Positions 1 to 63,155 of a DNA stretch of 64,000 nucleotides are shown piece after piece. The position numbers were made by a program, and so were the translations under genes. Below the pieces are notes generated by a model, which did not search any database, had not been told where the DNA came from, and saw only the letters and a program-made list of their open reading frames with translations. The DNA comes from Trissonchulus latispiculum. Its lineage: Eukaryota > Nematoda > Enoplea > Enoplida > Ironidae. Position 1 is the first letter of the stretch. Every line of letters starts with the position of its first letter. The stretch covers positions 1 to 64,000 of the forward strand of contig JASAND010021206.1 in NCBI GenBank assembly GCA_030248195.1. Direction: 5' to 3'.

Positions 1-2570
1 TTTCGGCTCAGCAAACTCGAAATTGGACGGAAGTAGAAATCGTCAAAAAACAAATTCGAAAGTTTGAACTAGAGGAAATTGAGAAAACCTTGGGAAGGGT
101 TAGAAGAAAGCAAGAATTGTGTGATAGCTACACAATTCTTCAAGCGAAGAAAATTGAGAAAGCAGAGGGGGAAAAGCGATACTTTTATTCCTTAAAAACA
201 GAAGCGGGGGAAACCGTTACTGGAAATAACAACATCTTGGGGGAGATGAGAAATCAATATCTAAAATTGTTTGATTAGTGGCGGAATTGATCAAGGAAAA
301 AGCTGATCAATCTCTAAATTCAACGGAGGTTAAAGTTCCAGATATTTCGCTTTCTGCCCTAGAAAGCGAAATAACCGTGGAAGAAGTTGCAAATGCAATT
401 AAGCAATTTGCTACCGGAAAGGTACCCGGGAAAGACGGACTCACAATTGAGTTCTATCTTTCAATAATTGAGGTAGTTGCCCCGTGGCTGGCTAAGGTAT
501 ACAACCTTAGTTTGGCTCGGGGGCAATTACCGGAGGATATGTAAATGGGGATAGTTTTATCACTTTTATATAAGGGAAAAGGGACAGGGCTGACTGAAAA
601 ACTGGCGCCCTCTGAGTATGTTGAATGTTGATTACATAATTTTGGACTAAATTCTAAGATATAGGTTAGCGGGGGTCATGAAATTTCTCATTCGAAATAC
701 TCAAACCTGCGGAGTTCCAGGAAGAGACATTAGGGACGGAATTTTGACTTTGTTGGGGATTTTGGATTATGCAAAACACAAGGAAAAGCCTTGTGTTTTC
801 TTGTCAGTAGACCAAATGTCTGCTTTCGATATGGTGGAGTGGGAATTTTTGAGAAAAGTTTTGGAAAAATTTGGGTTTGGGCCAAAATTTCGAGATTGGA
901 TCAACTTAATATACAAGGAAAACTTTGTCCAAAGTTCTCTGTTAGTGAACGGGTATCTCTCGATCCCGTTCACTTTAAGTCGAGGGATCCGGCAAGGATG
1001 CCCTTTATCTCCTCTTTTATACGTTTTGTGCAATGAAACGTTCCTAAATTTCGTTAGGAAATCAAATTCAATTCGAGGCATACCAATTTTGGGCCGTGAG
1101 GTAAAGGTCATTGCCTACGCAGATGACACAAATTTCACTGTGAGAGATTTCAGATCAGTCCACCAAATTTTCAAATACTACGAAATTTACGAAACTGTCT
1201 CTGGAGGAAAGCTAAAAGTCGAAAAGACCCAAATTTTGTTATACAACGGAGTTTTGGAGGCCAATGTGCCCCCAGAATACAGGAAATTCCTTTGCAAAAT
1301 AATCAAAGTTTTTGGCGTTTACATCAGCGAACAAGGGCTCAAAAACTCAAAAACAGATGCTGTTTTTAACGATCTAACCGAGAATTTGACCAGAGCAGTA
1401 CCGCCTACCAAAATTTCTGCCTACGGAAAAGTGACTGGCTTAATGACTTCATTTTTGTTCACTCTCTGGTACACAACTTGGTTTGTGTCACCAGAGAGTG
1501 ACAAAAGCAAGCAAATTATGAATTTTGATGTCAAAATACATTTGGCACCCGGTTACTACAAATTTCGCCAGCATAGATTGCGCTGTGCTCCCCAAAAACA
1601 AAGGGGGCATAGGTTTACCTCATATTGACCTAAGATTACTGGCGCAAAGGTTAGCTTTTCTAATTAGACGCAAACTTGGCGGAGACCAGGCATGGCACTT
1701 GACCTTTGACTATTTCTACGAAATGGTCAAAGGAAAAGGGCCAGCTGCCACCAAAATTGCAAAAGTACCAAAATTCTACAAAGAATTGAAGCAGGCGGAA
1801 CGCCAAATTGAATTGGGGTTCACTCCTGCCTCGGTTAGTTTTGGAGGTAAAATTTACACGTTAGAAACTGCCAAACTAAAGCCAATTTATGAATTCTTAG
1901 TGCTTAAGAAATTTTCGAGCAAAAGACAAGAAATCCAAAATGGCTGCAAAAATTTCCTGCAATTAATCCAAATGACTGGGAGTATATTTGGGCTTCCATG
2001 AAAACAAAATTTGTGCAAGGAATTGCTTCGGATGTTCACTTAAAATTAGTTCACAATAATTTAATGACGAACAAAAGAAAGAATCAAATCGATGCCAATA
2101 ATAGTCCATTTTGCGATTTTTGCTTACAAAATAATCTCAATTCGGTGGAAGATTTGATTCATGTATTCGGAACTTGCCCCAGGCTCCTCAATTTTTGGAG
2201 AAATGTTTGTAGATTGTTAAGATTGGTGGCTACTCCTCGGGTGACTTCCGGTGGTGGGTAGAAGTCAACTTTCTATCGTGACGGTAACACAGGAAAAACT
2301 TCTGATTTGTTGAACGGAAAAACCAAAAACTCCATCTGAATGCCAATTCAATTCAGACGGTACAAGGCGCGATTTGGTACAGTAGAGAGCTTTTTAAGAA
2401 AAGGAAAAGGACTAAAAGGTCCGTGGGACATTTTTCAGAAATCGGTTGGGAAAATTAGGGTTAATGCTAGTGCCTTTTTTGGGAGAAATGGGGATTAGTA
2501 AGCACCTCGAGGGAGAATTTCGGATTGTTTGAATTTGATGCTGATATTTGTCATTGAAATGTGTGTAATA
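1..2570 (+). pseudogene. LINE ORF2 3' part (reverse transcriptase and C-terminal zinc motif), left copy
   Basis: This is the same L1/Tx1-like ORF2 as the minus-strand copy at 10664-14195, cut at its 5' side by the window edge. The RT palm core is continuous at 678-1628, including the YADD box near 1126. The C-terminal cysteine/histidine motif (CDFC...H...C) lies near 2118-2180. The frame is broken repeatedly: a frameshift near 275, TAA at 542-544, damage at 545-680, a frameshift near 1525-1628, a TGA at 1999-2001 and further breaks after 2240. The TAA and the 1999-2001 TGA are also in the right copy, while the other breaks are private to this arm. The copy cannot make a functional protein. 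Confidence 0.9.
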
Positions 2571-4005
2571 TTTGGGCGCTATTTAGGAAAAAATTGAAAA
2601 CAAAAACTTTCCAAATTTTGAAAAAAGACTAAAGTCATTTTGGAGACTTCGAATTTGGACTGTTTTCAGGAAGTTAATTCCTGAAAATAGTTCAAAGTCA
2701 AGTTTTCAAGACTTTGTCGCTGGAGTGGAAGGGCAGGCGAGGCCGCCGATCCTCAGCAATTTTCTATTTAAAGTTGGAATTATAGTCATTTTTAATAAAA
2801 CTGACGCTGCAGCATTTTTCAAGAAGTATCAATAAAAACAGGATCTTTTTCTGGCTGTGTTTAAATCTTGGAAGCAGCCTTGAGTGGCAGACACTTTGTC
2901 TGCAGCACACACTCAGACGCACACACTAGGCGCAGCTCAACGTGCAGCTCTGCAGGAGCGTTTCTACATATGCGTAAAAACACAGGCCTGGGACGCTCCA
3001 ATACAGCTAAATAAACCCCATCGGGTTGATGCTGCAGCTCTAGTGTAGCTATATATACTTTCGGGTTTTTGAACTTTGAAACGCTTTGTTAACTTAGTTT
3101 TCAAATGACTTTCAAAACATAAATTTGACAGAAATTGGCAAAATCAAAGGTTTTTTAAGCAAATTACTTGAAGTATCTGCTTGAATCTGCAATGATTTAA
3201 TGACTTTGGCGTAAAATATTCTTTATTATTTAGTAGTATTAGTTTGGAAAACAGTTCATTAATTATGTAATTTGGTCGTATTTTGTGTTAATTTTTGACT
3301 TTTGTTTGTATTTCAGGCTAGAAATCAATTTTGAAGAAACTTGATTCGAATAGAAGACCGAATAGTTGGGGAAAACAGCATTTCAAAAAGAAATTTTCAT
3401 CAAATTTTCGCAAAGTTAGGAGTAATTCGGGTTCCAAAGGGACCTCCCTCCCCCCTTTTTGCCAGCTCCTAGTTTCATTTAGTTCATCTATTTAATGGAA
3501 TTTAAACGGCCCTATTTTCATTAATAATTATAGAAACTTTTAAAATCAACTGATTAAATTGCGACAATGTCGCCAAAATGCTGTTCCAAGTGCTAAGCAG
3601 CGAGTCAGGCTGCGGATCAAATCTGGCACAAAAGCAGTAGAAATCATACTTGGCGGCAGAGTAGCTAATTCTGCCGCCAAAGTCACGCAAATGCCAAAAA
3701 TTGGCGTCAAATCAGCAATAAAATGCCGCCCAAATATGGGCGGCAGGCATAGAAAAAGCATAGTTTTGGGCTGCTGGTGGAAAGTACAAATTCCGCCAGC
3801 AGCCTCCGCAGAGCAGTGCAGCATTTTGTTGACGTTAAAATAGACATTAACTTAAGGTTTCCAACGACTAAATGAATAAGCGTAGCACGCAGAATACAGG
3901 ACTGGATTGGCAGCTTGACTTCAAAGTCGGCGTATTAAAAGACTTAGTGCTTTCCTTTCGCAACAAATTTAATGCAAAGGTTGCTCTAAAAGGGTTTGAC
4001 ACAAA
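2571..4005. other. Gene-free DNA between LINE and tRNA-like gene (left arm)
   Basis: No coding potential was recognised here. Around 2870-3060 there is a GC-richer block with repeated CTGCAG/GCAGC words. Around 3570-3800 several short perfect inverted repeats occur, for example a 20-bp GCCGCCC...GGGCGGC palindrome near 3727. The whole stretch has its mirror copy at about 9220-10660. Short frames here look like by-products of the palindromic sequence. Confidence 0.6.
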
Positions 4006-4077
4006 GGGGCTGTAGCGCAGTGAGGAAAGCACCGGATCCGTAATCCGGGGATCCTGGGTTCAAGCCCCAGCACCCCT
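4006..4077 (+). tRNA. tRNA-like gene (possible anticodon CGT), left palindrome arm
   Basis: A cloverleaf can be drawn. The acceptor is GGGGCTG against CACCCCT (one C-C mismatch), and an A-box TAGCGCAGTGAGG is present. The anticodon stem CCGGA/TCCGG has loop TCCGTAA. The T-arm CTGGG/CCCAG carries the B-box GGTTCAAGCCC, and a T5 run follows directly. The simplest anticodon is CGT (Thr), but position 33 would be C rather than T and the D-stem has a mismatch. It may therefore be a pseudogene or a tRNA-derived repeat head. The inverted copy at 9144-9216 has one extra G in the anticodon arm. Confidence 0.65.
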
Positions 4078-4080
4078 CAA

Positions 4081-4085
4081 TTTTT
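4081..4085 (+). terminator. Pol III T5 terminator after tRNA-like gene
   Basis: A run of five T begins three bases after the tRNA-like body, where an RNA polymerase III stop is expected. The mirrored copy keeps the same run. Confidence 0.5.
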
Positions 4086-4980
4086 AATTTCAGTTTCTAA
4101 TGCAAAAACTAACTTCTTACTTTCAAATGCACACAATTTGAGAAAACTTAAAGAAAAGAAAGGTCCATGCATGGAATCAAATTTCTGCAAAATTGCTTTC
4201 ACCAATCTGCAAATGTGCTTTTGATACTTTATGTATGCTTGATACTGTTTCAGGTCTGAACGTGAATACATGGAAAAAAGGGAAATTAGTAGCTTTGCTT
4301 TCTATTTCTTGATAAACGATAAATCATTAAAAGTGCTGAACATTGTTAAATTTAAGTATTCGTTAATGATAAATAATTATGCCTTAGGGTAATAATATTC
4401 GCTGTAAATAATAACTTAGTGCAGTATTGTTCCAGTTTGTGCATTACTGTGTTTCTTCTGTTTCAGATTGGCAGGAGAAAACAGAAAAATGAGAAATGGC
4501 TAAGTTTCTGGCAGTTATTATTCCATTCTTTTAAGATTAGACTCTAGTGAAACATGCAGATCTCTTCGTTCTAAAGTGTCATACTAAAGTTAAGATACAG
4601 AACGAATCGCGACAAATCATAAAATCTAACTCTAAAACTAGGAAGCATTTGGTTCTCATTTTTTCTGTTTTCTTTGTTTGATTTAGTTGTAGAAATACAG
4701 ATTGGTAGCTTTGTTTTGTGTTCTTGTTTCTTATACAAATCTTTATATTTTAGCAAGATACAGTAAAAGAAAATGAAGATTAATGTTAAATGGAATAAAA
4801 TCAAAGCTTTCTTGAAAAATTTTTGTATTGAACGTTTGTAACAGAATGTCATATTAGTTTCCTTGTATAATACTGATTAATTGTGGTACTTTGATGCATT
4901 TTTGTATACAAAATTGTATTTTTATGCACTATTATTGGTTATGTAAACGGTATATGCGTGATCTAATAAATGACATAGAC
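4086..4980. other. AT-rich DNA without a recognised gene
   Basis: This is AT-rich sequence with no supported frame. Short frames on both strands show no domain or motif. It has a closely matching inverted copy at about 8230-9140, so its conservation reflects the palindrome and not coding constraint. Confidence 0.55.
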
Positions 4981-4984
4981 TTCG

Positions 4985-5480
4985 GTGAATAACGCTTATT
5001 GGAAATGCATTTTACGGCTAAGTGTTGGAACGATGTGGGCATTTTGGCACCATACTACTATTATATGTTGGTGGACAGGATCCCCCCATGCTACCTTTTT
5101 TTGGTCATTTTGGCACCTGGCCAATTTTGGCTCTGTGCCAAGGTCCCAAAGTCGGACTTTCGCTATTTTTCGCAAATTTTGGTCACACTTTTCTAGAACT
5201 GGGTAGAAGCTGGAGAGGTCTAGTATCTTTTGTTGAAAATTACCAGTAGGGGTGCAGTAAAGTAACGAGGGGGATTTTTTAATTTTGCTCCCTAGCTTTC
5301 AGGAGATGGGTCCAAACTTTGCATTTTTTTGGCCTGTTTGGGCGAAAAGTTTCTAAGTCCCACTTTCACTGGAAATAAATCAAAAAGTCGCCAAAAACGG
5401 CGTTTTTCGGCCTCGGGGTGGTCCCCATATATAGTAAATCGGGGTCGCTGAAAACGATGAGCATACTGCCGATACCGCCC
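4985..5480 (+). repeat. Dispersed repeat module (copies also at 7725-8225 and 19965-20510)
   Basis: Near-identical text occurs inverted at 7725-8225, and a diverged minus-type copy lies inside an AKAP10 intron at 19965-20510. Recognisable pieces are the GCCAAAATGCCCA block, the CTCCTGAAAGCTA block and the CGAAAAACGCCGTTTTT block. The identical short frames in both arms (65-75 codons) follow from this repetition and show no protein motif. The module is probably part of a non-coding mobile repeat. Confidence 0.75.
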
Positions 5481-5484
5481 GAAG

Positions 5485-5990
5485 TGACCACTGGTCAGCA
5501 TGGCTCCCGTGGTTCCTCGCCCAGGGTCAAAATTGGGAAAACTCCCTCTAAACAGCGTTTTTCGGCGTTTTGGTCGGGGGCATATATAGTAAATCGACTA
5601 CGCTCGTTTCAATGGGCATATCGCCGAAACCGACGGAAGTGACCACTGGTCACTACAGCCTACGGGGCCTATTGACCACTGGTCAAACGGCCTAAAACTG
5701 CGTTTTTCGGCGTTTTGGTCGGGGGCATATATAGTAAATCGACTACGCTCGTTTCAGTGGGCACATTTTCGAAACCGACGGAAGTGACCACTTCACTACG
5801 GCCTAGGGGTCCTGTTTACCACTGGTCAAACCTCCTAAAACAGCGTTTTTCGGCGTTTTGGTTGGGGGTATATATTGTAAATCGACTACGCTCTTTTCAA
5901 TGGGCATATTTTCGAAACCGACGGAAGTGACCACTGGTCACTACGGTCTATGGGGCCTATTGACCAGTGGTCAAACCTCTTAAAGCAGCG
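5485..5990 (+). repeat. About 150-bp tandem repeats carrying TGACC-N3-GGTCA palindromes
   Basis: Three to four head-to-tail units each contain the CGTTTTTCGGCGTTTTGG block, a TATATAGTAAATCGACTACGCTCG-type block, and one or two 13-bp palindromes TGACCACTGGTCA or TGACCAGTGGTCA. Copies of the palindrome start near 5485, 5640, 5673, 5928 and 5960, and one near 5785 is degraded. The right palindrome arm carries the mirrored array at about 7230-7730. Each palindrome is an everted GGTCA pair with a 3-bp spacer. Whether anything binds it is unknown. Confidence 0.8.
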
Positions 5991-6466
5991 ATTTTCGGTC
6001 AAAAAGAAGAAGGGAAGGGAAACCCCTTAAAACAGCTTTGTCATAGACCCCAGAGGGGAAGGGGGGGGGGGGGGTTTTCGGCGTTTTGTTGGTAAAAAGA
6101 AAGGGCATATATTCTAAATCGACTAAGCTCGTTTAGCATAGCACTGTTCAAGCTCCTTGTATCCATGGGAGGGGAAGTATTTATTAGGATATATATTTTA
6201 TTTATTATATATTAAGTATATATATAGTACCGCATTGCCATATATATAGGGAAGGGATCCTTTAAAATGACTTGTAGAAGGACAATAGAATAAAAAATGC
6301 TCCTCTGGAGCATGAAAAAGTAATAGGGGTGATGGTGAGGTTGCAAAATCAAGAGAGGACTAGTCTTTAAAATGCTTAATATGGGGCTAGGTTAAAAAAT
6401 AGAAAAGGACTAGGTTGTGAGCGAATTAATATGGGCACAGCTTCGCCGAACAACCCATATTCGCGG
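5991..6466. other. Inner left arm: poly-G run and TA-rich insert
   Basis: A G-run lies at about 6057-6073 and a TA-rich stretch (about 6180-6245) that is mostly absent from the right arm. The segment 6290-6466 matches 6913-7095 inverted. No gene was recognised. Confidence 0.6.
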
Positions 6467-6912: not shown

Positions 6913-9900
6913 CCGCGAATATGGGTTGTTCGGCGAAGCTGTGCCCATATTAATTCGCTCACAACCTAGTCCTCTTCTATTTTTTAACCTAGCCCCATAT
7001 TAAGCATTTTAAAGACTAGTCCTCTCTTGATTTTGCAACCTCACCATCACCCATATTACTTTTTCATGCTCCAGAGGAGCATTTTTATTTCTTGTCCTTC
7101 TGTCATTTTAAAGGATCCCTTTCCAGCAATGCGGTAATAGATACAAGGAGCTTGAACAGTGCTATGCTAAACGAGCGTAGTCGATTTAGAATATATGCCC
7201 CCAACAAAACGCCGAAAAACGCTGTTTTAAGGGGTTTGACCACTGGTCAATAGGCCCCATAGACCGTAGTGATCACTGGTCACTCCCTCGATTTCTGCAA
7301 TATGCCCATTGAAACGAGCGTAGTCGATTTACTATATATGCCCCCAACCAAAACGCCGCAAAACCATGTTTTAAGGGGTTTGACCAGTGGTCAATAGGAC
7401 TCCTAGGCCGTAGTGACCAGCGGTCACTTCCGTCGGTGTCGGCAATATGCCCATTGAAACGAGCGTAGTCGATTTACTATATATGCCCCCGACCAAAACG
7501 CCGAAAAACGCAGTTTTAGGCCGTTTAACCAGTGGTCAATAGGCCCCGTAGGCTGTAGTGACCAGTGGTCACTTCCGTCGGTTTCGGCGATATGCCCATT
7601 GAAACGAGCGTAGTCGATTTACTATATATGCCCCCGGTCAAAACGCCGAAAAACGCTGTTTAGAGGGAGTTTTCCCAATTTTGACCCTGGGCGAGGAACC
7701 ACGGGAGCCATGCTGACCAGTGGTCACTTCGGGCGGTATCGGCAGTATGCTCATCGTTTTCAGCGACCCCGATTTACTATATATGGGAACCACCCCGAGG
7801 CCGAAAAACGCCGTTTTTGGCGACTTTTTGACTATTTCCAGTGAAAGTGGGACTTAGAAACTTTTCGCCCAAACAGGCCAAAAAAATGCAAAGTTTGGGC
7901 CCATCTCCTGAAAGCTAGGGAGCAAAATTAAAAAATCCCCCTCGTTACTTTATGCACCCCTACTGGTAATTTTCAACAAAAGATACTAGACCTCTCCAGC
8001 TTCTACCCAGTTCTAGAAAAGTGTGACCAAAATTTGCGAAAAATAGCGAAAGTCCGACTTTGGGACCTTGGCACAGAGCCAAAATTGGCCAGGTGCCAAA
8101 ATGACCAAAAAAAGGTAGCATGGGGGGATCCTGTCCACCAACATATAATAGTAGTATGGTGCCAAAATGCCCACATCGTTCCAACACTTAGCCGTAAAAT
8201 GCATTTCCAATAAGCGTTATTCACCGAAGTCTATGTCATTTATTAGATCACGCATATACCGTTTACATAACCAATAATAGTGCATAAAAATACAATTTTG
8301 TATACAAAAATGCATCAAAGTACCACAATTAATCAGTATTATACAAGGAAACTAATATGACATTCTGTTACAAACGTTCAATACAAAAATTTTTCAAGAA
8401 AGCTTTGATTTTATTCCATTTAACATTAATCTTCATTTTCTTTACTGTATCTTGCTAAAATATAAAGATTTGTATAAGAAACAAGAACACAAAACAAAGC
8501 TACCAATCTGTATTTCTACAACTAAATCAAACAAAGAAAACAGAAAAAATGAGAACCAAATGCTTCCTAGTTTTTTAGAGTTAGATTTTATGATTTGTCG
8601 CGATTCGTTCTGTATCTTAACTTTAGTATGACACTTTGTGAACGAAGAGATCTGCATGTTTCACTTAGAGTCTAATCTTAAAAGAATGGAATAATAACTG
8701 CCAAGAAACTTAGCCATTTCTCATTTTTCTGTTTTCTCCTGCCAATCTGAAACAGAAGAAAACACAGTAATGCACAAACTGGAACAATACTGCACTAAGT
8801 TATTATTTACAGCGAATATTATTACCCTAAGGCATAATTATTATTTATCATTAACGAATACTTAAATTTAACAATGTTCAGCACTTTTAATGATTTATCG
8901 TTTATCAAAGAAATAGAAAGCAAAGCTACTAATTTCCCTTTTTTCCATGTATTCACGTTCAGACCTGAAACAGTATCAAGCATACATAAAGTATCAAAAA
9001 GCACATTTGCAGATTGGTGAAAGCAATTTTGCAGAAATTTGATTCCATGCATGGACCTTTCTTTTCTTTTAAGTTTTCTCAAATTGTGTGCATTTGAAAG
9101 TAAGAAGTTAGTTTTTTGCATTAGAAACTGAAATTAAAAATTGAGGGGTGCTGGGGCTTGAACCCAGGATCCCCGGATTACGGATCCCGGTGCTTTCCTC
9201 ACTGCGCTACAGCCCCTTTGTGTCAAACCCTTTTAGAGCAACCTTTGCATTAAATTTGTTGCGAAAGGAAAGCACTAAGTCTTTAATACGCCGACTTTGA
9301 AGTCAAGCTGCCAATCCAGTCCTGTATTCTGCGTGCTACGCTTTTATTCATTTAGTCGTTGGAAACCTTAAGTTAATGTCTATTTTAACGTCAACAAAAT
9401 GCTGCACTGCTCTTCGGAAGGCTGCTGGCGGAATTTGTACTTTCCACCAGCAGCCCAAAACTATGCTTTTTTCTTATGCCTGCCGTTCATATTTGGGCGG
9501 CATTTCATCGCTGATTTGACGCCAATTTTTGGCATTTGCGTGACTTTGGCGGCGAGAATTAGCTACTCTGCCGCCAAGTTATGATTTCTACTGCTTTTGT
9601 GCCAGATTTGATCCGCAGCCTGACTCGCTGCTTAGCACTTGGAACAGCATTTTGGCGACATTGTCGCAATTTAATCAGTTGATTTTAAAAGTTTTTATAA
9701 TTATTAATGAAAATAGGGCCGTTTTAAATTCCAGTCAATAGATGAACTAAATGAAACTAGGAGCTGGCAAAAAGGGGGAGGGAGGTCCCTTTGCGAACCC
9801 GAATTACTCCTAACTTGCGAAAATTTGTCGAAAATTTTTTTGGAAATGCTGTTTTTCCCAACTATTCGGTCTTCTATTCGAATCAAGTTTCTTCAAAATT

Positions 9901-12900
9901 GATTTCTAGCCTGAAATACAAACAAAAGTCAAAAATTAACACAAAATACGACCAAATTACATAATTAATGAACTGTTTTCCAAACTAATACTACTAAATA
10001 ATAAAGAATATTTTACGCCAAAGTCATTAAATCATTGCAGATTCAAGCAGATACTTCAAGTAATTTGCTTAAAAAACCTTTGATTTTGCCAATTTCTGTC
10101 AAATTTATGTTTTGAAAGTCATTTGAAAACTAAGTTAACAAAGCGTTTCAAAGTTCAAAAACCCGAAAGTATATATAGCTACACTAGAGCTGCAGCATCA
10201 ACCCGATGGGGTTTATTTAGCTGTATTGGAGCGTCCCAGGCCTGTGTTTTTACGCATATGTAGAAACGCTCCTGCAGAGCTGCACGTTGAGCTGCGCCTA
10301 GTGTGTGCGTCTGAGTGTGCTGCAGACAAAGTGTCTGCCACTCAGGCTGCTTCCAAGATTTAAACACAGCCAGAAAAGATCCTGTTTTTATTGATACTTC
10401 TTGAAAAATGCTGCAGCGTCAGTTTATTAAAAATGACTATAATTCCAACTTTAAATAGAAAATTGCTGAGGATCGGCGGCCTCGCCTGCCCTTCCACTCC
10501 AGCGACAAAGTCTTGAAAACTTGACTTTGAACTATTTTCAGGAATTAACTTCCTGAAAACAGTCCAAATTCAAGTCTCCAAAATGACTTTGGTCTTTTGT
10601 CAAAATTTGGAAAGTTTTTGTTTTCAATTTTTTCCTAAATAGCGCCCAAATATTACACACATTTCAATGACAAATATCAGCATCAAATTCAAACAATCCA
10701 AATTCTCCCTCGAGGTGCTTACTAATCCCCATTTCTCCCAAAAAGGCACTAGCATTAACCCCAATTTTCCCAACCGATTTCTGAAAAATGTCCCACGGAC
10801 CTTTTAGTCCTTTTCCTTTCTTAAAAAGCTCTCTACTGTACCAAATCGCGCCTTGTGCCGTCTGAATTGCCAGATTGGCATTCAGATGGAGTTTTTGGTT
10901 TTTCCGTTCAACAAATCCAAGAAGTTTTTCCTGTGTTACCAAATCACGATAGAAAAGTTGACTTCTACCCACCACCGAGTCACCCGAGGGAGTAGCCACC
11001 AATCTTAACAATCTACAAACATTTCTCCAAAAATTGAGGAGCCTGGGGCAAGTTCCGAATACATGAATCAAATCTTCCACCGAATTGAGATTATTTTGTA
11101 AGCAAAAATCGCAAAATGGACTATTATTGGCATCGATTTGATTCTTTCTTTTGTTCGTCATTAAATTATTGTGAACTAATTTTAAGTGAACATCCGAAGC
11201 AATTCCTTGCACAAATTTTGTTTTCATGGAAGCCCAAATATACTCCCAGTCATTTGGATTAATTGCAGGAAATTTTTGCAGCCATTTTGGATTTCTTGTC
11301 TTTTGCTCGAAAATTTCTTAAGCACTAAGAATTCATAAATTGGCTTTAGTTTGGCAGTTTCTAACGTGTAAATTTTACCTCCAAAACTAACCGAGGCAGG
11401 AGTGAACCCCAATTCAATTTGGCGTTCCGCCTGCTTCAATTCTTTGTAGAATTTTGGTACTTTTGCAATTTTGGTGGCAGCTGGCCCTTTTCCTTTGACC
11501 ATTTCGTAGAAATAGTCAAAGGTCAAGTGCCATGCCTGGTCTCCGCCAAGTTTGCGTCTAATTAGAAAAGCTAACCTTTGCGCCAGTAATCTTAGGTCAA
11601 TATGAGGTAAACCTATGCCCCCTTTGTTTTTGGGGAGCACAGCGCAATCTATGCTAACCAAATTTGTAGTAACCGGGTGCCAAATGTATTTTGACATCAA
11701 ATTCATAATTTGCTTGCTTTTGTCACTCTCTGGTGACACAAACCAAGTTGTGTACCAGAGAGTGAACAAAAAGTAAGTCATTAAGCCGGTCACTTTTCCG
11801 TAGGCAGAAATTTTGGTAGGCGGTACTGCTCTGGTCAAATTCTCGGTTAGATCGTTAAAAACAGCATCTGTTTTTGAGTTTTTGAGCCCTTGTTCGCTGA
11901 TGTAAACGCCAAAAACTTTGATTATTTTGCAAAGGAATTTCCTGTATTCTGGGGGCACATTGGCCTCCAAAACTCCGTTGTATAACAAAATTTGGGTCTT
12001 TTCGACTTTTAGCTTTCCTCCAGAGACAGTTTCGTAAATTTCGTAGTATTTGAAAATTTGGTGGACTGATCTGAAATCTCTCACAGTGAAATTTGTGTCA
12101 TCTGCGTAGGCAATGACCTTTACCTCACGGCCCAAAATTGGTATGCCTCGAATTGAATTTGATTTCTAACGAAATTTAGGAACGTTTCACCCAAAACGTA
12201 TAAAAGAGGAGATAAAGGGCATCCTTGCCGGATCCCTCGACTTAAAGTGAACGGGATCGAGAGATACCCGTTCACTAACAGAGAACTTTGGACAAAGTTT
12301 TCCTTGTATATTAAGTTGATCCAATCTCGAAATTTTGGCCCAAACCCAAATTTTTCCAAAACTTTTCTCAAAAATTCCCACTCCACCATATCGAAAGCAG
12401 ACATTTGGTCTACTGACAAGAAAACACAAGGCTTTTCCTTGTGTTTTGCATAATCCAAAATCCCCAACAAAGTCAAAATTCCGTCCCTAATGTCTCTTCC
12501 TGGAACTCCGCAGGTTTGAGTATTTCGAATGAGAAATTTCATGACCCCCGCTAACCTATTGGTTAGAATTTTGGCCAAAATTTTGTAATCAACATTCAAC
12601 ATACTCAGAGGGCGCCAGTTTTTCCGGTCGGCCCTGTCCCCTTTTCCCTTATATAAAAGTGATATTATCCCCATTTACATATCCTCCGGTAATTGCCCCC
12701 GAGCCAAACTAAGGTTGTAAACCTTAGCCAGCCACGGGGCAACTACCTCAATTATTGAAAGATAGAACTCAATTGTGAGTCCGTCTTTCCCGGGTACCTT
12801 TCCGGTAGCAAATTGCTTAATTGCATTTGCAACTTCTTCCACGGTTATTTCGCTTTCTAGGGCAGAAAGCGAAATATCTGGAACTTTAACCTCCGTTGAA

Positions 12901-13216
12901 TTTAGGAATTGATCAGCTTTTTCCTGATCAATTCCGCCACTAGTAAACAATTTTAGATATTGATTTCTCATCTCCCCCAAGATGTTGTTATTTCCAGTAA
13001 CGGTTTCCCCCGCTTCTGTTTTTAAGGAATAAAAGTATCGCTTTTCCCCCTCTGCTTTCTCAATTTTCTTCGCTTGAAGAATTGTGTAGCTATCACACAA
13101 TTCTTGCTTTCTTCTAACCCTTCCCAAGGTTTTCTCAATTTCCTCTAGTTCAAACTTTCGAATTTGTTTTTTGACGATTTCTACTTCCGTCCAATTTCGA
13201 GTTTGCTGAGCCGAAA
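6913..13216 (-). repeat. Right arm of the 13-kb imperfect palindrome
   Basis: Reverse-complement partner of 1-6466. It carries, reading inward, the LINE ORF2 3' half (13216-10664), gene-free DNA (10660-9220), the tRNA-like gene (9216-9144), AT-rich DNA (9140-8230), the dispersed module (8225-7725) and the tandem array with TGACC palindromes (7730-7230). It differs from the left arm by scattered substitutions and indels, including private frameshifts, which argues against a simple read-duplication artefact. Confidence 0.93.
9144..9216 (-). tRNA. tRNA-like gene, right palindrome arm
   Basis: Mirror copy of the gene at 4006-4077, with the same acceptor, A-box, B-box and downstream T5. One extra G sits in the 5' half of the anticodon stem, which would bulge or break the arm. 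This copy is more likely a pseudogene than the left one. Confidence 0.6.
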
Positions 13217-14195
13217 ATAACTGCTTTTGTAAAATTTCCTTCTCTTCTCTTCGTCTTTGAGCGATTAATTTGGCATGAAATTTAAACAAATTTCGCATTT
13301 GTTCTTTGAAATTCTCCCATTCCGAAATAATTTCAGAATCGGGGGAATTTTCAAGTTTCTGCTGACCTTCATAGAGAACTTCCATAAAGTCTTGTTCGAA
13401 CATTAGGTCTTGAAAACAGTTTATATTCATTTTCCAGTATGAACGGCCTCGAGCCTGGCTCAACAAATTTTCTGAAATTTTAAAGTTTAAGGCGCTATGA
13501 TCCGAAAAATGTACTGGATCATAGCCAATTGAAAGGCAGGCGCCAGCTTGTCTACTGAACATGTACAGTCTGTCTAGTCTGCTGGCACAGACTCGACTTC
13601 GGTTTACATGACTGTACGCCTTCTCATTTGCATATTTCAGTCTAAAAACATCAACTAAATCAAATTTTTGTGTAATCTGACTAAATTCTCTATGCCCAAT
13701 TTTTGCTTGATAAGTAGAAGCAACTTTCGAATTTCTGTCCAATTCGGGATTTTCCACAAAATTAAAGTCACCGGTCATGAAAAAAGCATCATGACCGCGG
13801 ATTTTTTCTTCCAAAATTTTCAGTAAATTTTTGAAAAAGGGCATTCGTTTTTGATCGTTCGCGGGAGCGTAAACTTTCACTAGCAAAATTTTCTGTTTGC
13901 CAATTTTTGCACTCACACAAATTAATCTCCCTTCCAATTCCAAAACCTGATCAAAAACACCTGCAACTGAATGATTAATTAATAGAATGACCCCACCGCC
14001 TTGTCTAGCAGTAAATGAATAATAAATTTTAAATTTTGGTGCAAAAACTTTCTCAAAGTAAAAATGTTTTGTAGTATAATTTGATTCTTGAATAAAGGCA
14101 ATATCTGTTGATTTTATCAAACAAAAAACATGCTCAATTTTTGAATTTTGATTCAATCCATTTACATTCAAGCTAGTAAAGCTCAGTGGGGCCAT
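10664..14195 (-). pseudogene. LINE ORF2: APE endonuclease and reverse transcriptase
   Basis: The ATG at 14195 opens a 506-codon frame (to 12675) with a complete APE-like endonuclease: NVNG near residue 10, FIQES near 35, GDFNF near 142, SRLDRLY near 207 and FSDHSALN near 230. A coiled linker and the start of the RT follow. A TAA near 12675 stops this frame. The RT continues at 12674-12120 (GIISLLYKGKGD, KNWRPLSMLN, RQGCPLSPLL), then after a frameshift at 12135-11224 (YADD near 12110). A final 187-codon frame at 11227-10664 overlaps the previous stop by ATGA and holds the CDFC...H...C motif. The TAA and the ATGA break are shared with the left arm, so they predate the duplication. The frameshift near 12160 is private. 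Confidence 0.9.
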
Positions 14196-14234: not shown

Positions 14235-15883
14235 CTATTTTGGTCTCTTATCCGCAGCTCCTGTTCCAGAATCTTCCGGCAATGGTCTTTTCTGGCTTTG
14301 ATTCGCCTTCCTGAATTGTTCCAGTTCAGCCGTCATCTCCGGTGTTCTCAGCATCTTGATCCGCAGTGTGGTGAGCATGTCGCCCAGCACATTGCGCCCT
14401 GGCCAGAGCTTGGAATCAGATACCTTGGGATCGTTTATTCCAAGCCCGCAGCTCCAGACCATATCTGAGGGATTGGCCTCCACCAGTCTTCGGCCGTCCG
14501 TCATCAGTAGAGCCCGCCTGAGCTCCGGATTTTGCTCGAACTTAAGGTAGAGTCCGTACCACATGGCCCTGTATTGTTCCTTCTCTTCCCAGGTCCGGTG
14601 CTGTTCCGGGGTCCCGCGGATCCGGTCTCCCATCATCTTGACCTCGCCCGGGTTCTCCGTGTCCAGTATCTTGGCCGCCACCTCCTTGTTGTCCATGTGC
14701 CGGGCTTTCCTCCAGAAGTAGTAGTGCTCATTGGTCCGGTAGGTGAGCCCATCGTGAACAAAAGGGGACTTATGATGGTTGGAATAAGGATATTTCCTTG
14801 TAAAAAGGAAACGATCTTGTCCCCATAGGTCCTGGCGTAGTACTTGCTCTTCGCCTCCATGATCTCCTTCCAGGTTGGACCCGCGTCCAGGGACATACTG
14901 GACACTGAATGGGACCTGGGCCTTTCCTCGGGTTCCATTTCCGGGTTGTCCCCGTCAGCCTCTTGGGTCCCTGTTGTTCCCACATCCCCAGGAACCTCAC
15001 GCTTCTTTGCCTCTGCACCCCCTAGGGTTACCATTCCGTCCCCTTCGCCCTCTGCACCGCCGTCCCCCAGGGTTCCGGGATGGGCCCCATCTGGAAGCTG
15101 CTGGGTCGTCTCCCATCGCCTCGGGGGGACCGCCGGGTTGGACCGCCTGGAATTTTGAGGGGGAATGGCTTCCGGATTTTCGCACTCCCGTTTGTAGTGA
15201 CCCGGACCGAAGCACCGGTTGCACCAGGTGCCCCAGTCCGGGTACCATAGCTGGACCTTGATCTTGTGGGTGGCCCCTTCCGGAGTGTAGACGGCATACC
15301 CTGGGACCACCATCTCCCGGGGCACCTTGACCAAAACTGAGCGCCCCCCATCCCGGATGGAGGACCTCTTCCCGTTCTCCCCCTTGTAATATGTCCATCT
15401 GAAGGGGGACGCCTTCTCTAAACCCAGGGTCCCCAACCACCTGCTCAAATGCTGCTCCGAATCTGAGATCGGGACATTGTAGATGTAGATGGACCTGATA
15501 GAGAGGGACATCCTTTCCTCCTCCCGGGGAACCTCTAAATTGACCATCAGGTTGTCCAATTTGACCCCCTCCCGGAGAACCCGATCCCTGAGGGCCTTTC
15601 CATTATAGATGAGTTTTAGATGGAAAGGCCCTGCCCGCCTTACGAATTCGGGCAGGACCTCCCCATCGTTACTGCTTTCTAACCTTTGAACCAATTTCAG
15701 GGTGGAATCTCCTTGAAATTCGTCCGGAATAGGGAGGTACCCCGTCCGTTGGAGTACCTCCTTCTTCGCGTTCTCCATGGCGTCTGTAGCTGGAGTGAAT
15801 TGGCTTCGGCTGTCCTCTTCTTCCATGGTGATATCGTTTTCCGTGGCCGCCGAGGCGGCCTGATCCGTGGCAGCGTGAGCCAT
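14235..15883 (-). pseudogene. LINE ORF1: RRM-like/CCHC nucleic-acid-binding protein with C-terminal NADAR domain
   Basis: The ATG at 15883 is preferred over an upstream in-frame GTG. The frame encodes an acidic N-terminus, an RRM-like region (about residues 60-200) and a CCHC knuckle CNRCFGPGHYKREC near residue 225. A proline/glycine-rich linker follows. A frameshift near 14775-14790 then moves the frame into a NADAR domain, with SNHHKSPF, DGLTYRTNEHYYFWRKA, KFEQNPELRRALL, the D-x2-W-x-C-G-L block, WPGRNVLGDML and a basic tail. These match the DUF1768/YbiA family signature, including the glutamate of the EHYY box. NADAR proteins remove ADP-ribose from modified bases or related compounds. The role in an ORF1 is unknown. 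Apart from the one frameshift the coding sequence looks intact. Confidence 0.82.
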
Positions 15884-16004
15884 AATGGCCCACACTCTTC
15901 GACTGAACTGGAAGGCTGAGGCAGATGAATTGAGATCAATCTAGGCAATATGGCAGTAAAAGTAAACTGAATCAGTGTTGACGTTGATGAAGCTCTGAGA
16001 GCCG

Positions 16005-16255
16005 AGAAGCGTTATTCACCGAGAAAAAAAACGCACCGTAACTATCGCCTAGTGCAAAAATTCAAAGTTTCGAATTCGAACCAAAAGTATGGTGGTACTT
16101 GTAGTACTACTCGAGTTGTTTACGATGGTAACCTTTTTACCACCGCCGGACCTCTAATTAGCTGGCACCAGGCCAACACGGTCTCCAGAGGGCCGCGCAG
16201 ACGCCTTTATACCCATATTATGTAGGGGCGCTATCGCGCCCCTACATAATACAGT
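16005..16255 (+). repeat. Hairpin-terminated dispersed repeat, copy 1
   Basis: About 250 bp is shared with 20500-20745: the GCGTTATTCACCG start, GGTAACCTTTTTACC, ATTAGCTGGCACCAG, GGCCGCGCAGACGCC and a terminal hairpin. The hairpin at 16217-16250 has a perfect 15-bp stem (ATTATGTAGGGGCGC) and a TATC loop. It sits just upstream of LINE ORF1, so it is either the LINE's 5' region or an older repeat into which the LINE inserted. Confidence 0.8.
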
Positions 16256-32202: not shown

Positions 32203-32262
32203 AATGAAAGAACAAACGAAACTAAGATTGTCGCTACAGCACCTCCGACCCGAAAAATTCGG

Positions 32263-32334
32263 GCCCGAGGTGGGGATCGAACCCACAACCTTTGGCTGTC
32301 TAGGCCAACGCTCTACCGATTGAGCCACCCGGGC
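32263..32334 (-). tRNA. tRNA gene, anticodon loop CTAGACA (anticodon AGA), copy 1
   Basis: Seventy-two bases fold cleanly. The acceptor is GCCCGGG/CTCGGGC (one G-U), the D-arm GCTC/GAGC, the anticodon stem TTGGC/GCCAA with loop CTAGACA, the variable loop AGGTT, and the T-arm GTGGG/CCCAC with TTCGATC. T33 is followed by AGA, which would read the serine codon UCU. However, the variable loop is short (type I), unlike normal serine tRNAs. A T5 run lies about 12 bp downstream. It may be a decoding variant, a mutated tRNA of other identity, or an element-derived tRNA. Confidence 0.88.
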
Positions 32335-32524
32335 ACAATCGAACCAAGCTTAAGTTGGAATTCGTTCCCAAACTGTAGTGACATTTTAGAAGACGCTTTC
32401 GCGCCAGCCCACACAGTCTGATGGGAGCAAACCTCGACCGTTTCACACCGTAATGGGCAAGACAAATGAAAGAACAAACGAAACTAAGATTGTCACTACA
32501 GCACCTCCGACCCGAAAAATTCGG

Positions 32525-32596
32525 GCCCGAGGTGGGGATCGAACCCACAACCTTTGGCTGTCTAGGCCAACGCTCTACCGATTGAGCCACCCGGGC
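32525..32596 (-). tRNA. tRNA gene, anticodon AGA, copy 2
   Basis: Identical in all stems and loops to the copy at 32263-32334, 262 bp away. The same A-box, B-box GGTTCGATCCC and downstream T5 are present. Confidence 0.88.
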
Positions 32597-32785
32597 ACAA
32601 TCGAACCAAGCTTAAGTTGGAATTCGTTCCCAAACTGTAGTGACATTTTAGAAGACGCTTTCGCGCCAGCCCACACAGTCTGATGGAAGCAAACCTCGAC
32701 CGTTTCAAACCGTAATGGGCAAGACAAATGAAAGAACAAACGAAACAAGATTGTCACTACAGCACCTCCGACCCGAAAAATTCGG

Positions 32786-32857
32786 GCCCGAGGTGGGGAT
32801 CGAACCCACAACCTTTGGCTGTCTAGGCCAACGCTCTACCGATTGAGCCACCCGGGC
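32786..32857 (-). tRNA. tRNA gene, anticodon AGA, copy 3
   Basis: Third full copy in the tandem array, unchanged in the cloverleaf. Flanks differ from the other units only by small changes. Confidence 0.88.
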
Positions 32858-39630: not shown

Positions 39631-40194
39631 CATAGGTGTACCACCTGTTTGGGTTGGGGGGGGGGGAGTAGAAGGTCCAAATTTGGCTCGGGGGACCCCA
39701 CCCAAATCCGAAATTTGGGGGGGGGGGACCCCCCCTAAACTGTACCCAAGTTTTTTTAGCTAAAAATGCTCCTTTTTCGATGTACATTACATTAAACGTA
39801 CTCAAAAGCTTCTGTCAATAGTTTTCGTATGCGAAAATAGGGCTTGAAAATTGACAAATTTGCACTAAAATATGCTTAAATTAGCCCAGATTGTGGTTTA
39901 TAATTGCGTATATTATCTTCTAATTGCTATAAATAACCATCTTTAGCTGTTTATAGGTGATTTATAGCCTATTTTTCAAATTTTTTTCAAAAATTTTCAG
40001 AAGTTGCAAAAAATTTTCAAAAATTTTGCATTTTTTACTTGATTTGGACCCAATTTTAGGGGGGGAGGGGGGTTTGACTTTGAGCTCGGCTTGGGAGGGG
40101 GGGAGTAGTTGAGGTCGGGTAGGGGGGGGAGGGGGGTCTGGCCTCTCCGTGGGGGGGTCTCACAGGGGGTAAACTGTAGCCTGGTACACCTATG
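39631..40194. mobile_element. 564-bp hAT-type MITE inserted in the Merlin transposase gene
   Basis: The termini are 13-bp perfect inverted repeats CATAGGTGTACCA. The flanks are direct 8-bp copies GTCTCCAC at 39623-39630 and 40195-40202, the duplication size of hAT elements. The interior is G-rich and has no ORF. Beyond the left copy the sequence resumes a reading frame compatible with the host transposase C-terminus, so the insertion split that gene. Confidence 0.9.
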
Positions 40195-41134
40195 GTCTCC
40201 ACATAAACTCGAGTAGTTTTCTCCTGATCATCGTTTGTGTTGTTCCTCTTTGTGTGCGCAGCCAATGTTTTAGGGAACCCCATAAACTTTCAATTGTTTG
40301 TGTGTGGATTTCGGGATTTGCTGGATCGACGAAATGTTCGGCATGAACTACGTATCTGTGACGGTAGGGACTTGGCTGTGGAATGTAAGCTGAGAATCCA
40401 TGTACGTATGTTCCGTATGCGTCGGTCATTATTGTTGTTCCCGGCTTCACATGGCGCTGGATGCAGGGAATGAGCGTGGCAATGTCTCTGTTGCGTACGG
40501 GGAATATCAGGCAAAGTTTTGTGTCTCGTTCTATCATTCCTAGGACCCAGTGATGAGCTCCCGCTGCATGGCTGACGTTATATTTGCGTTTAAAGAAATA
40601 GCTTTCATCAATTTCAACAATTTTTCCCGGACCACCGATTCTGGCACCGTGCCAGTGCAGCATGTCAAATCGTACAGGGATGTCTCTCATGAAGTTGTAC
40701 CATGTTGATGCTGCTTTATGACTAATATCTGCCTCACGCATGCACACTTCGTGTGGCAGGTTCCATGTCCAGCATACTGTAATGATTATAATCTGCTGTA
40801 AAGTCAGTAAGCTGTTTGCAAAAAATGAATCAGTTCGTATTGAAAGTCGTTTTCTGCAAATAGGTTCAGTCGAACAGTTCCATAAGTATTTGTCTGATCG
40901 ATTGTCTTCGGTTCGCGGTGAAAGATGCATTGGATGATTGCATCTTGGACATGTCCGTTGGTTCGCAATAAGTTTCCATTTTGCGCAGAGCTCAATCCAG
41001 GCATTATAATTAGTCAATATCTGTCCGAAGCCAAATAAAGTCGGATTTAAAGCAATAATGTCGTTATTCGTTAGTATTTCGTTTTGATTAACAATAGTGA
41101 AACGCAAATTTCGTGGACGTCCACGTCCAGGCAT
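40191..41134 (-). pseudogene. Merlin (IS1016/IS1595-like) DDE transposase, C-terminus cut by a MITE
   Basis: The ATG at 41134 is chosen over an upstream in-frame GTG at 41149. The frame has no break for about 314 codons. An N-terminal GRGRPR patch is followed by a zinc-binding part (CPRCNHPMHL ... CRKRL) and helical DNA-binding text. The catalytic acidic residues are visible in EIDESYFFKRKY, IMTDAYGTY and HTQTIESLWGSLK. NPEIHTQTIE and FMWR are typical of the family. The frame ends with a stop inside the MITE terminus at 40191-40193; further transposase-like codons lie left of the MITE, just below 39630. The lost tail is short, so activity cannot be excluded. Merlin terminal repeats were not found. 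Confidence 0.88.
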
Positions 41135-41204
41135 TATTTCCTGTAACACATAGTAGTACTTACACTGTGTAATTGGTTTCTGTTTAGTTATATATATGCT
41201 TTAT

Positions 41205-55632: not shown

Positions 55633-55975
55633 AGCTATTGCAATATATGTGGAATGACATTCGGCCGGAAAGATGCATTGGTGCGGCACATGGATACCAA
55701 GCATTTCGAAAAGGTAATGTGGCTCCAATACGGATAGTACCACATTTTGCTTGACTGCAAGCATGCCTTGTCTTTAGTCGAGTTCTTATTTCATGTGTCG
55801 AGTTTTTTGTTTCAGGTCAGGATTCAGTGCGGTCATTGCGAACAGTCGCTTCTGCGTACAGATACCTACCAGCGCCACATTCGAGAACAGCATGAACAAT
55901 TGAGGAAGTTCATCTGTGAAGAATGTTATCGTGCCTTTACAAGAAAGGAAGAGCTAGCCGCACATCAGAAACGTC
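55633..55975 (+). pseudogene. C2H2 zinc-finger gene 5' part, cut at the inverted-repeat border
   Basis: Exon 55633-55713 follows a TTTTAG acceptor and encodes CNICGMTF...HMDTKH. A 102-bp intron (GTAATG...TTTCAG) follows. The exon from 55816 encodes fingers CGHC...HIREQH and CEECYRAFTRKEELAAH. In the third finger similarity to the right-hand gene ends after AAACG at 55973, and the second zinc histidine is lost. The left copy is thus the 5' piece of the same gene that continues intact on the minus strand at the right edge. Confidence 0.8.
55865..55973 (+). repeat. Inner part of left terminal inverted repeat
   Basis: Matches 64000-63892 in reverse complement with three mismatches in 109 bp (coordinate sum 119,865 throughout). 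Similarity stops sharply at 55973/63892. The outward extent cannot be measured because the right copy runs off the window. Confidence 0.85.
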
Positions 55976-55978
55976 AGG

Positions 55979-56188
55979 GAAAAGGTGCGGCAAAATGCTG
56001 ATATTGAGCGGCTACTGATGGACACTGGTGATGGGATAATTGCGGCTGCTACAGGATCAATAGACAATTATTGGGGTATTGGTCTGGATGCAGATGATCG
56101 CCTTGCCATAAACCCAAAGAAATGGCGTGGTGAAAACGTTCTTGGCAAGATGTAGATGAAGATTAGAGAAGAAGCGAGAACCTGCTAA
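55979..56188 (+). pseudogene. NADAR (YbiA-like) domain fragment inside the Polinton-like element
   Basis: In the frame +1 to the zinc fingers, codons from 55979 read EKVRQNADIERLLMDTGDG, then SIDNYWGIGLDADD and NPKKWRGENVLGKM, a TAG at 56153-56155, and MKIREEAR. This is the C-terminal half of a NADAR/DUF1768 domain, with the D-x2-YWGIGL, W-x-G-x-N-x-LG and VRE-like blocks in order. The N-terminal half with the catalytic-region glutamate is missing, apparently lost at the junction with the zinc-finger segment. The family cleaves N-glycosidic bonds of ADP-ribose or riboflavin precursors. It sits between the inverted repeat and the ATPase, so it is element cargo. Confidence 0.8.
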
Positions 56189-56295
56189 TTGATGAACTTT
56201 TGTGTAATTGTGAACGTTGTAAACAATAAAAACAACGTTTCCGCCAATCATCAAACACGATGAAAATGGCACTTATACCTACTCCTTTTTTGATG

Positions 56296-56879
56296 CTCCA
56301 TTCCATTTACCTGCGTAGTTGCAGCGCCAACTAAAGCTGGAAAGACTACATTCGTTTCAAAGCTATTACAGCATGCGGATCAAATGATACAACCCCAACC
56401 AGATCGGATTTTGTGGTGTTACACCGAATGGCAAGAAGCCTATGAAAATCTACCGTATGTTACCTTTCAAAAGGGACTACCCAATTTAGAAGAACTGAAA
56501 CGTAACAAGCACATGAATACTCTCATCGTTTTGGATGATCTCATGTCGGAAGTAACAAAGGATTCGAAACTGGTGGAATTGTTTACGCGTGGGTGCCATC
56601 ACTCAAGACATATTCTTTGCAAGGAGGACAAGCAGGATAAATGCTCAGTACATTGTACTAATGAAGAATCCTGCCGACAAGCTAACTCCACTGAATCTCG
56701 CCAAGCAAATGTACCCTGGTCAAGTAGATGGCTTCATGCAAGCCTTCAATCATGCCACAAGCAAGCCTCATGGATACCTGCTGATTGATCTGGATCAAGC
56801 AACGCCAGAAGAATTTCGACTACGAACAAACATATTTCCAGATGAACTTAATGGGGTGTATACACTACAGAAGACATAA
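56296..56879 (+). pseudogene. Polinton packaging ATPase (FtsK/HerA type), frame broken
   Basis: Walker A (APTKAGKTTF) is at 56332-56361 and Walker B (LIVLDDLM) near 56520-56545. After about 56605 the frame changes. The C-terminal part is read at 56589-56879 in another frame (YIVLMKNPADKL, LAKQMYPGQ, EFRLRTNIFP). Family alignment from memory suggests that a short out-of-frame deletion removed a hydrophobic strand at the junction. A TGA precedes the N-terminal part near 56295, so the start is also lost. The intact enzyme would pump DNA into capsids. Confidence 0.88.
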
Positions 56880-56953
56880 ATACATGCGATGTAAACAATA
56901 TTAACCGTAAAAAAGACATAAAAGCTATTCCCGATTAATGTATCATCAGCGAT

Positions 56954-57292
56954 ATGGCTCAACGATTTGAAAAGAACGTAGTCTATTTGAGTGTTCTATG
57001 CAAGTGTAACCCAAAACAACGTAAAGCTATACTCAAGACAGCAGACAATCAGCTCATAGGAGTCATTTGTGACTGTGTGGAAAACGTACTAGCGGGTAAC
57101 GTACCGCTTAGCGACGAAGAAAAGCATCGTCTGAGAAAACGTATCAACGTTCTCAGAAGAATTCGCGCAAAGAAGACTTTGGCCAGCAAACGAAAGGAGA
57201 TTGTTCAACACGGAGGATTGTTGCCTGCAGTTTTGGCTCCTCTCATTGGCGTTGTTCGTGGATTACTCAGTGATCTGATACTCAGAAGATGA
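56954..57292 (+). CDS. Small basic protein with C-terminal hydrophobic segment
   Basis: The 112-residue intact frame has a lysine/arginine-rich middle (KHRLRKRINVLRRIRAKK) and a hydrophobic end (LLPAVLAPLIGVVRGLLSDL) preceded by VQHGG. Similar small proteins with that ending are common between ATPase and integrase in Polinton-like elements. They have been compared with adenovirus core or membrane-active peptides, but the role is not established. Its stop overlaps the next ATG by ATGATGG, suggesting coupled expression. Confidence 0.75.
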   Translation: MAQRFEKNVVYLSVLCKCNPKQRKAILKTADNQLIGVICDCVENVLAGNVPLSDEEKHRLRKRINVLRRIRAKKTLASKRKEIVQHGGLLPAVLAPLIGVVRGLLSDLILRR

Positions 57293-57858
57293 TGGAATAC
57301 TCAGTACTGGTTAGACCAGATTATTTCGAGCAGCATGGAGACGTTGCAGCCCAGCAAATCAAGGAAGCGCTGGAGCAGAAAGTACCCTCAGATGTGAAAC
57401 TTGCCCTATACCGCCAGCAAAACTACCGGAACCGGCTGATTAAAGAAAAGCCAAAAACGACAATGACTGTTAAAAGGGAGTCATCTCCCCAGACTGACAG
57501 CATTATTGTGGATAACCTTCCACCAGCAGTTCAAACGAAAGGTAGAATGCTTATCCAGCATTTGCAAGGCATTAAGGGTTTTAGAGTAAACGATAGGGGA
57601 GAAATTGAGTATAAAGGACAAATTGCCGAAGACTCACGGATATTTGATTTTATTAATGACTTTGTTAGGAAACGGAAGACAAAAACGTCTCAACCTGGCG
57701 ACGATTTATTTGTCGAAGCTCTACGAGATAGCAATGTACCCCGCGAATTTATAGGTAACTCAGCCCGATTGGCTCATATTCGAAAACATAAAAAGCAAAT
57801 TGGACGCGGATCTAATATATCCAGTGTTCTAAAACGTTTAAAATGGAAGCGATCTTAG
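57289..57858 (+). CDS. Conserved Polinton-type protein of unknown function
   Basis: The 189-residue intact frame starts four bases before the previous stop. It is highly charged, with motifs LVRPDYFEQ, KVPSDVKLALY and LIKEKPKT at the N-terminus and a basic C-terminus ending RLKWKRS. It contains no membrane segment and no recognised catalytic motif. Its position between the small basic protein and the integrase is kept in related elements as far as I recall. It overlaps the integrase start by 16 bp. Virion or nucleic-acid binding is possible but unproven. Confidence 0.7.
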   Translation: MMEYSVLVRPDYFEQHGDVAAQQIKEALEQKVPSDVKLALYRQQNYRNRLIKEKPKTTMTVKRESSPQTDSIIVDNLPPAVQTKGRMLIQHLQGIKGFRVNDRGEIEYKGQIAEDSRIFDFINDFVRKRKTKTSQPGDDLFVEALRDSNVPREFIGNSARLAHIRKHKKQIGRGSNISSVLKRLKWKRS

Positions 57859-62710: not shown

Positions 62711-62747
62711 TAAAAGGCGCTGAAATCTGACAAGAAACTGACTGACA

Positions 62748-63035: not shown

Positions 63036-63155
63036 ACGAAATCATCAAACCTCTCCGGAGGTTCCGCCTGAAGCCACAGCGTGGCGGATGGCTTTATTTC
63101 AGGTAAAAAGGCATTTATACATACAGAATAACTTGTTTACATATAACACATATCT

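Follow-up and report, generated by a model that had tools for sequence, protein, structure and literature searches.

The DNA examined here (the window) comprises positions 1-64,000 of contig JASAND010021206.1 of the nematode Trissonchulus latispiculum, whose genome assembly amounts to 734 Mb in 21,732 contigs. On its minus strand lies a decayed copy of an L1-like long interspersed nuclear element (LINE), and the first open reading frame of this element, ORF1, ends in a NADAR domain. The minus-strand frame at 14235-14954 matched the Pfam NADAR profile (PF08719) with an E value of 1.1e-33 over profile positions 10-161 of 163 and a score of 117 bits, the cut-off being 35.1, and this bears out the C-terminal NADAR/DUF1768 domain that a first-pass annotation had read from the DNA. 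The window domain carries the equivalents of all three catalytic residues, E43, K50 and E125, of the P. nicotianae NADAR. The parts of the element are as follows.

15884-16005, minus strand: likely 5' leader; homology to the sister copy L040 stops at 16005 (blastn 14448-16005, 84%)
14235-15883, minus strand: LINE ORF1, ATG at 15883-15881 and stop at 14237-14235, with a frame change near 14802-14806; relatives have about 550 amino acids in one frame
15239-15496 (approximate), minus strand: RNA recognition motif (RRM)-like region of ORF1
15182-15223, minus strand: CCHC zinc knuckle
14352-14795, minus strand: NADAR domain
14727-14729, minus strand: Glu codon equivalent to E43
14706-14708, minus strand: Lys codon equivalent to K50
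14478-14480, minus strand: Glu codon equivalent to E125, which marks the YbiA subfamily
12675-14195, minus strand: first part of ORF2, an apurinic/apyrimidinic endonuclease (APE) and the start of the reverse transcriptase region (Exo_endo_phos E 6.1e-8; LINE-1 ORF2p E 4.5e-30)
11224-12674, minus strand: ORF2 reverse transcriptase, in two frames in the window copy (LINE-1 ORF2p E 3.2e-23; R2 1.5e-10)
10664-11317, minus strand: C-terminal part of ORF2, zf-RVT-like (zf-RVT E 0.0019, below cut-off)
1-5998, plus strand: inverted duplicate of 7212-13216 at 97.7% identity, which repeats most of ORF2 but lacks ORF1

Of the two parts that the first-pass annotation had placed ahead of the NADAR domain, the CCHC knuckle stands by its C-x2-C-x4-H-x4-C ligand spacing, which was read directly and whose four ligands are all invariant in 13 of 13 ORF1 rows, although its Pfam match (zf-CCHC_3, E 0.0013) fell below the cut-off. 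The RRM-like region was placed by eye from an AlphaFold model of the relative L030, in which RRM-like strands and helices were predicted at a mean predicted local distance difference test score of 54 overall, and Foldseek with this model matched RRM chains weakly (E >0.1, probability up to 0.96). The N-terminal part of ORF1 is likely RNA-binding. The NADAR fold of ORF1 is a confident prediction, and the predicted domain was found to have the YbiA fold.

ORF2 begins at an ATG at 14195, 39 bases past the end of the NADAR frame. Among the solved structures compared, ORF2 is closest to LINE-1 ORF2p, with APE followed by reverse transcriptase, and lies nearer L1 than R2; RVT_1 matched it with an E value of 3.1e-23 at 12120-12674 and of 0.072, below the cut-off, at 11224-12165. 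The LINE is called L1-like by this match, and possible Tx1 membership is a lead from PMC12477816.

The first-pass annotation also had ORF1 running into the NADAR domain. This does not hold within one frame for the window copy, where a run of T near 14802-14806 is the point at which the NADAR frame diverges from that of the ORF1 N-terminus (14633-15940), but it does hold for many other copies, in which both parts share a single stop-free frame of about 550 amino acids. The ORF2 of the window copy is interrupted by an in-frame stop (12675-12677) and changes frame downstream of it. Together with the ORF1 frameshift, these defects rule out the window copy as a working element. The two arms of the inverted duplication (1-5998 and 7212-13216) differ by 73 substitutions and by 49 indel events, of which 37 involve a single base; the duplication may be a real palindrome or an artefact of an unpolished long-read assembly. 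Two tRNA-Thr-like genes (9143-9216 and 4006-4078) lie downstream of the two LINE copies, within the duplicated stretch.

The fusion across the genome

A genome search with the window NADAR, in which the best 150 of 1608 candidates were scored, listed 149 non-self matches, 64 of them in frames open for 500 amino acids or more and 24 with internal stops. The sequence was extracted and read for 29 of the 149, and the LINE identity of the remainder was judged from score and frame length. Among the 30 cut-out loci, which were picked by NADAR score and include the window (L029), ORF1 N-terminal homology was present in 29 and APE in 28. The ORF1 N-terminal part was also used alone as a query, with the best 150 of 296 candidates scored; when partial matches were dropped and only those running from query residue 22 or earlier through residue 216 or later of 228 were kept, 96 near-complete matches were retained, the window among them. 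A same-strand NADAR match was listed no more than 1.6 kb downstream of 84 of these 96, or 83 of the 95 that are not the window. The NADARs of this LINE family (LINE-A) form one clade in a 73-row NADAR tree, with support of 100/99.

The ORF1-NADAR fusion is a property of the LINE family and not a product of chance. That a chance fusion or a misassembly had put a host NADAR behind a LINE ORF1 might be suspected from the frameshift at the ORF1/NADAR junction of the window copy and from the neighbouring ORF2 part, which sits in an inverted duplication rich in one-base differences. The same gene order nevertheless recurs on many contigs, often in a single frame, and the LINE-A NADARs are one clade; the 64 listed open-frame matches and the 84 ORF1 matches followed by NADAR exclude a local accident, leaving this explanation a negligible probability.

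The NADAR domain is under strong purifying selection. The ratio of nonsynonymous to synonymous substitution rates (dN/dS) was estimated by the Nei-Gojobori method from 17 ORF1 frames no shorter than 470 amino acids (of 28 found in the 30 loci), using unsaturated pairs with dS of 0.1-1.2. From 136 pairs in total, which are non-independent and in NADAR mostly saturated, the medians were 0.051 for the RRM-CCHC part (9 pairs), 0.42 for the linker (26), 0.057 for NADAR (10) and 0.094 for APE (17). The NADAR domain is therefore constrained about as tightly as the RRM-CCHC part.

Conservation of the active site was followed in 27 LINE-A rows, including the window and some decayed copies and counting identical domains once, mapped on the P. 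nicotianae NADAR. The equivalents of E43, W89, E125, D130 and W133 are kept in all 27 rows and that of K50 in 25, with one Arg and one gap. In the P. nicotianae enzyme, E43, K50 and E125 surround the bound ADP-ribose, and replacement of the Lys by Arg in the E. coli enzyme keeps in-vitro activity while losing rescue from toxicity (PMC11543638). Glu at position 125 denotes the YbiA subfamily, with Asp found instead in DarT1-linked NADARs (PMC11543638, PMC11125620).

The two halves of the element differ in history. In a comparison of ORF1 and APE trees for 17 loci and the window, with the window ORF1 row consisting of the N-terminal frame only, L058 is sister to L057 by ORF1 (100/100) and joins the window group by APE (100/99). 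This mismatch suggests that NADAR travels with ORF1.

LINE-NADAR matches are clustered in places, with seven on contig C1314 (on one strand, at 6.0-7.7 kb spacing), eight on C8862 and six on C15243. Such clusters may reflect site-specific or nested insertion; the one 2-kb junction compared revealed no clear target.

Relatives and other NADAR carriers

Protein searches with the NADAR frame (306 candidates) and with the ORF1 N-terminal frame (7352 candidates) found no relatives. A 13-row ORF1 profile found none among viral contigs, and among 7996 candidates scored it matched three metagenomic proteins, P0001-P0003. Residues 57-209 of P0001 match L1 ORF1p (2ykp, E 4.1e-8; Transposase_22 E 0.0018, below cut-off), and its NADAR lies at residues 247-392. 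P0002 and P0003 align almost end to end with P0001 at 29% and 27% identity, and their assignment to the L1 type follows from this full-length alignment, P0002 alone having no L1 ORF1p match among solved structures and P0003 not having been compared with them. Judged from protein sequence, P0001-P0003 would represent a second, L1-type LINE ORF1 with a C-terminal NADAR. They share this placement with LINE-A, but where LINE-A has the RRM-like region and CCHC knuckle they have the RRM and C-terminal domain of the L1 type, together with a coiled coil recognised by eye. No L1-type ORF1 was seen in the T. latispiculum genome among the 88 listed matches of P0002, all of which are confined to residues 306-487 of P0002, a stretch made up of NADAR and its margin.

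The three L1-type NADAR rows lie on long branches outside the LINE-A clade of the 73-row tree. In approximately unbiased (AU) tests, whose groups were named after inspection of the tree so that the p values are guides only, joining the LINE-A and L1-type NADARs in one clade costs 10 log units (p-AU 0.109), against p values of 0.133 for the L1-type rows alone and 0.454 for LINE-A with P0001. Both a common clade and independent capture are compatible with these values.

Other elements of the same genome also bear NADAR. In a Pfam NADAR search of the genome, the best 150 of 2478 candidates were scored and all exceeded the cut-off; 27 loci read from that list (L001-L019 and L021-L028), some only 1.5 kb to each side, have NADAR without homology to the window LINE. 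At L001, the neighbours of NADAR include, by Pfam, an ATPase like poxvirus A32 (E 5.2e-9) and a gene for TATA-binding protein (TBP; E 5.7e-37). Further loci look Polinton-like by eye, with C2H2 zinc fingers joined to NADAR and an adjoining ATPase and integrase, and L022 and L024 are of an apparent third type. Apparently unrelated mobile elements thus carry NADAR in one genome. The window holds one Polinton-like element itself (55865-64000), whose frames share 64-71% (ATPase) and 57-62% (integrase) identity with those of L009, and which has a NADAR remnant at 55973-56185. An exclusive clade of LINE-A and Polinton-like NADARs was rejected (AU p 0.00125).

Several details of these carriers can be added. 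L001-L006 look like copies of one multi-copy element with NADAR, a TBP gene and an A32-like ATPase (by Pfam in L001 only, by eye in the others). In L007 and L008, NADAR ends a 645-amino-acid open stretch of unassigned type, and related NADARs occur in shorter frames at L019 and at L012, the latter beside long terminal repeat (LTR) pol frames (by eye). In the window element, 55865-55973 is repeated inverted at 63892-64000, a possible terminal inverted repeat.

The first-pass annotation had taken the architecture to be undescribed, and here it was mistaken, as the ORF1-NADAR arrangement is of an already known kind: several Tx1 LINE families of Crassostrea gigas, the Pacific oyster, were reported to have a YbiA-family NADAR in their ORF1, and another was reported in the N-terminal region of Gypsy Pol in Ectocarpus (PMC12477816). 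The oyster case shares with ours a YbiA-family NADAR in an animal LINE ORF1; it came from a Repbase protein search, is worded as 'divergent hits' that 'appear to constitute' such proteins, and is likened here by description only. The Ectocarpus case is likewise a YbiA-family NADAR in a retrotransposon protein, but in the Pol of an LTR element of a brown alga. Among the indexed papers listed, a set without preprints and without most subscription papers, only PMC12477816 was seen to describe NADAR in retrotransposons, and its available part makes no mention of selection, active site or copy-by-copy conservation in the oyster elements. New within the literature covered are the conservation among copies across a genome, the selection, the state of the active site, the fusion of NADAR to L1-type ORF1 and its parallel occurrence in other elements. 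With these data, the published remark on oyster LINEs grows from an annotation into a domain that many copies retain under strong selection and that occurs with two ORF1 types.

The structurally characterised NADAR of P. nicotianae (8bau) and E. coli YbiA (2b3w) have the same fold and catalytic Glu/Lys/Glu as the LINE-A domain. Neither is known as part of a mobile-element protein. The DarT1-NADAR toxin-antitoxin system (PMC11543638) shares the NADAR hydrolase fold, but LINE-A has the YbiA-type Glu instead of Asp and no linked transferase family, none (DarT or other) being found among the six ORF1/ORF2 frames scanned. With no DarT match in the genome either, a DarT-NADAR toxin-antitoxin system was rejected.

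Possible roles of the ORF1 NADAR

We lean towards the view that the ORF1 NADAR is an ADP-ribose-removing enzyme, held by ORF1 on the RNA and new cDNA of the element, that undoes ADP-ribosylation by the host; on the sequence evidence we rate this as somewhat probable. ORF1p would coat the element RNA, its RNA-binding part would tether NADAR to that RNA and to new cDNA, and NADAR would remove ADP-ribose, most likely from guanine, in the RNA, the cDNA or the target site. Removal would counter a host defence, as the first-pass annotation had suggested, with shielding of the element as the benefit. NADARs of several branches hydrolyse guanine-ADP-ribose (PMC11543638), and guanine-modifying transferases occur in animals as butterfly pierisins and clam CARP-1, although erasure of their marks by NADAR is an assumption without experimental confirmation in those papers (PMC11543638, PMC11125620). 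The NADARs of eukaryotic RNA viruses have been proposed to target host ADP-ribosylation (PMC9503650).

Several observations weigh against an eraser of host marks. The equivalent of R79, which in 8bau touches the ADP-ribose pyrophosphate and is Arg in both 8bau and 2b3w, is replaced in each of the 27 LINE-A rows, by Asp in 13 (the window among them) and by Glu in 14; that of R93 is Lys in 22, Arg in 3 and Gln in 2, including the window. Neither position is invariant in the other NADAR rows aligned. These replacements in the phosphate-binding wall call for caution on the exact ligand, and ligand preference may differ. A Pfam search of the genome returned 0 DarT candidates, in a test of the DarT family only whose control was positive in 1 of 14 genomes. 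Twelve of the 96 near-complete ORF1 matches have no listed NADAR downstream; these may lie at contig ends, have NADARs below the best 150 matches scored, or truly lack the domain. YbiA-type NADARs may act on small molecules (PMC11543638), and the SNA-3 NADARs of C. elegans serve trans-splicing, so that a role in RNA handling is possible (PMC9303266).

The last point leads to a rather unlikely alternative, that NADAR helps the LINE to handle its own RNA, for instance by acting on RNA ends that are damaged or derived from NAD or by serving as an RNA-protein contact, and does not act against a defence. It would suit the joining of NADAR to an ORF1 with RRM-like and CCHC parts; SNA-3, required for trans-splicing, is found with RNA factors (PMC9303266), and in PMC12477816 the domain is suggested to process the RNA intermediate. 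The retained catalytic set counts against mere binding though not against RNA processing, and NADARs also sit in DNA-based-looking elements of the same genome, which have no RNA intermediate in common with LINEs. Improbable, in our view, is the proposal that NADAR clears soluble ADP-ribose or a riboflavin-type N-glycoside and is only localised by its linkage to ORF1. The replacement of R79 throughout LINE-A would fit such a substrate, as would the cleavage of riboflavin intermediates by E. coli YbiA and the other substrates that non-DarT NADARs may have (PMC11125620, PMC11543638, PMC9503650), but a small-molecule enzyme would gain nothing obvious from fusion to a likely RNA-binding protein.

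An extension of the ADP-ribose-eraser view can be put forward tentatively, and we hold it for possible but doubtful. In this animal, different kinds of mobile DNA would share NADAR as an anti-defence module because the host would mark foreign nucleic acid with ADP-ribose, and LINE ORF1 would be the ribonucleoprotein-tethered form of the module. The carriers would include the L1-like LINE, the Polinton-like and TBP/ATPase-bearing elements and others, and elsewhere the second LINE ORF1 type. An active enzyme would mean that the RNA-binding protein of an animal retrotransposon contains an eraser of nucleic-acid ADP-ribosylation, and would raise a direct genetic question, whether a catalytic-dead NADAR stops the element. 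If the counter-defence role is true, it points to an ADP-ribose mark as a genome defence in invertebrates, one without prior description in animals.

Other features of the window

Three tRNA-Ser(AGA) genes lie at 32261-32857 in a tandem repeat of about 262 bases. The stretch at 9010-9727 is similar (75%) to a repeat in L056, and a long frame at 40190-41200 resembles, by eye, an IS1595-type transposase.
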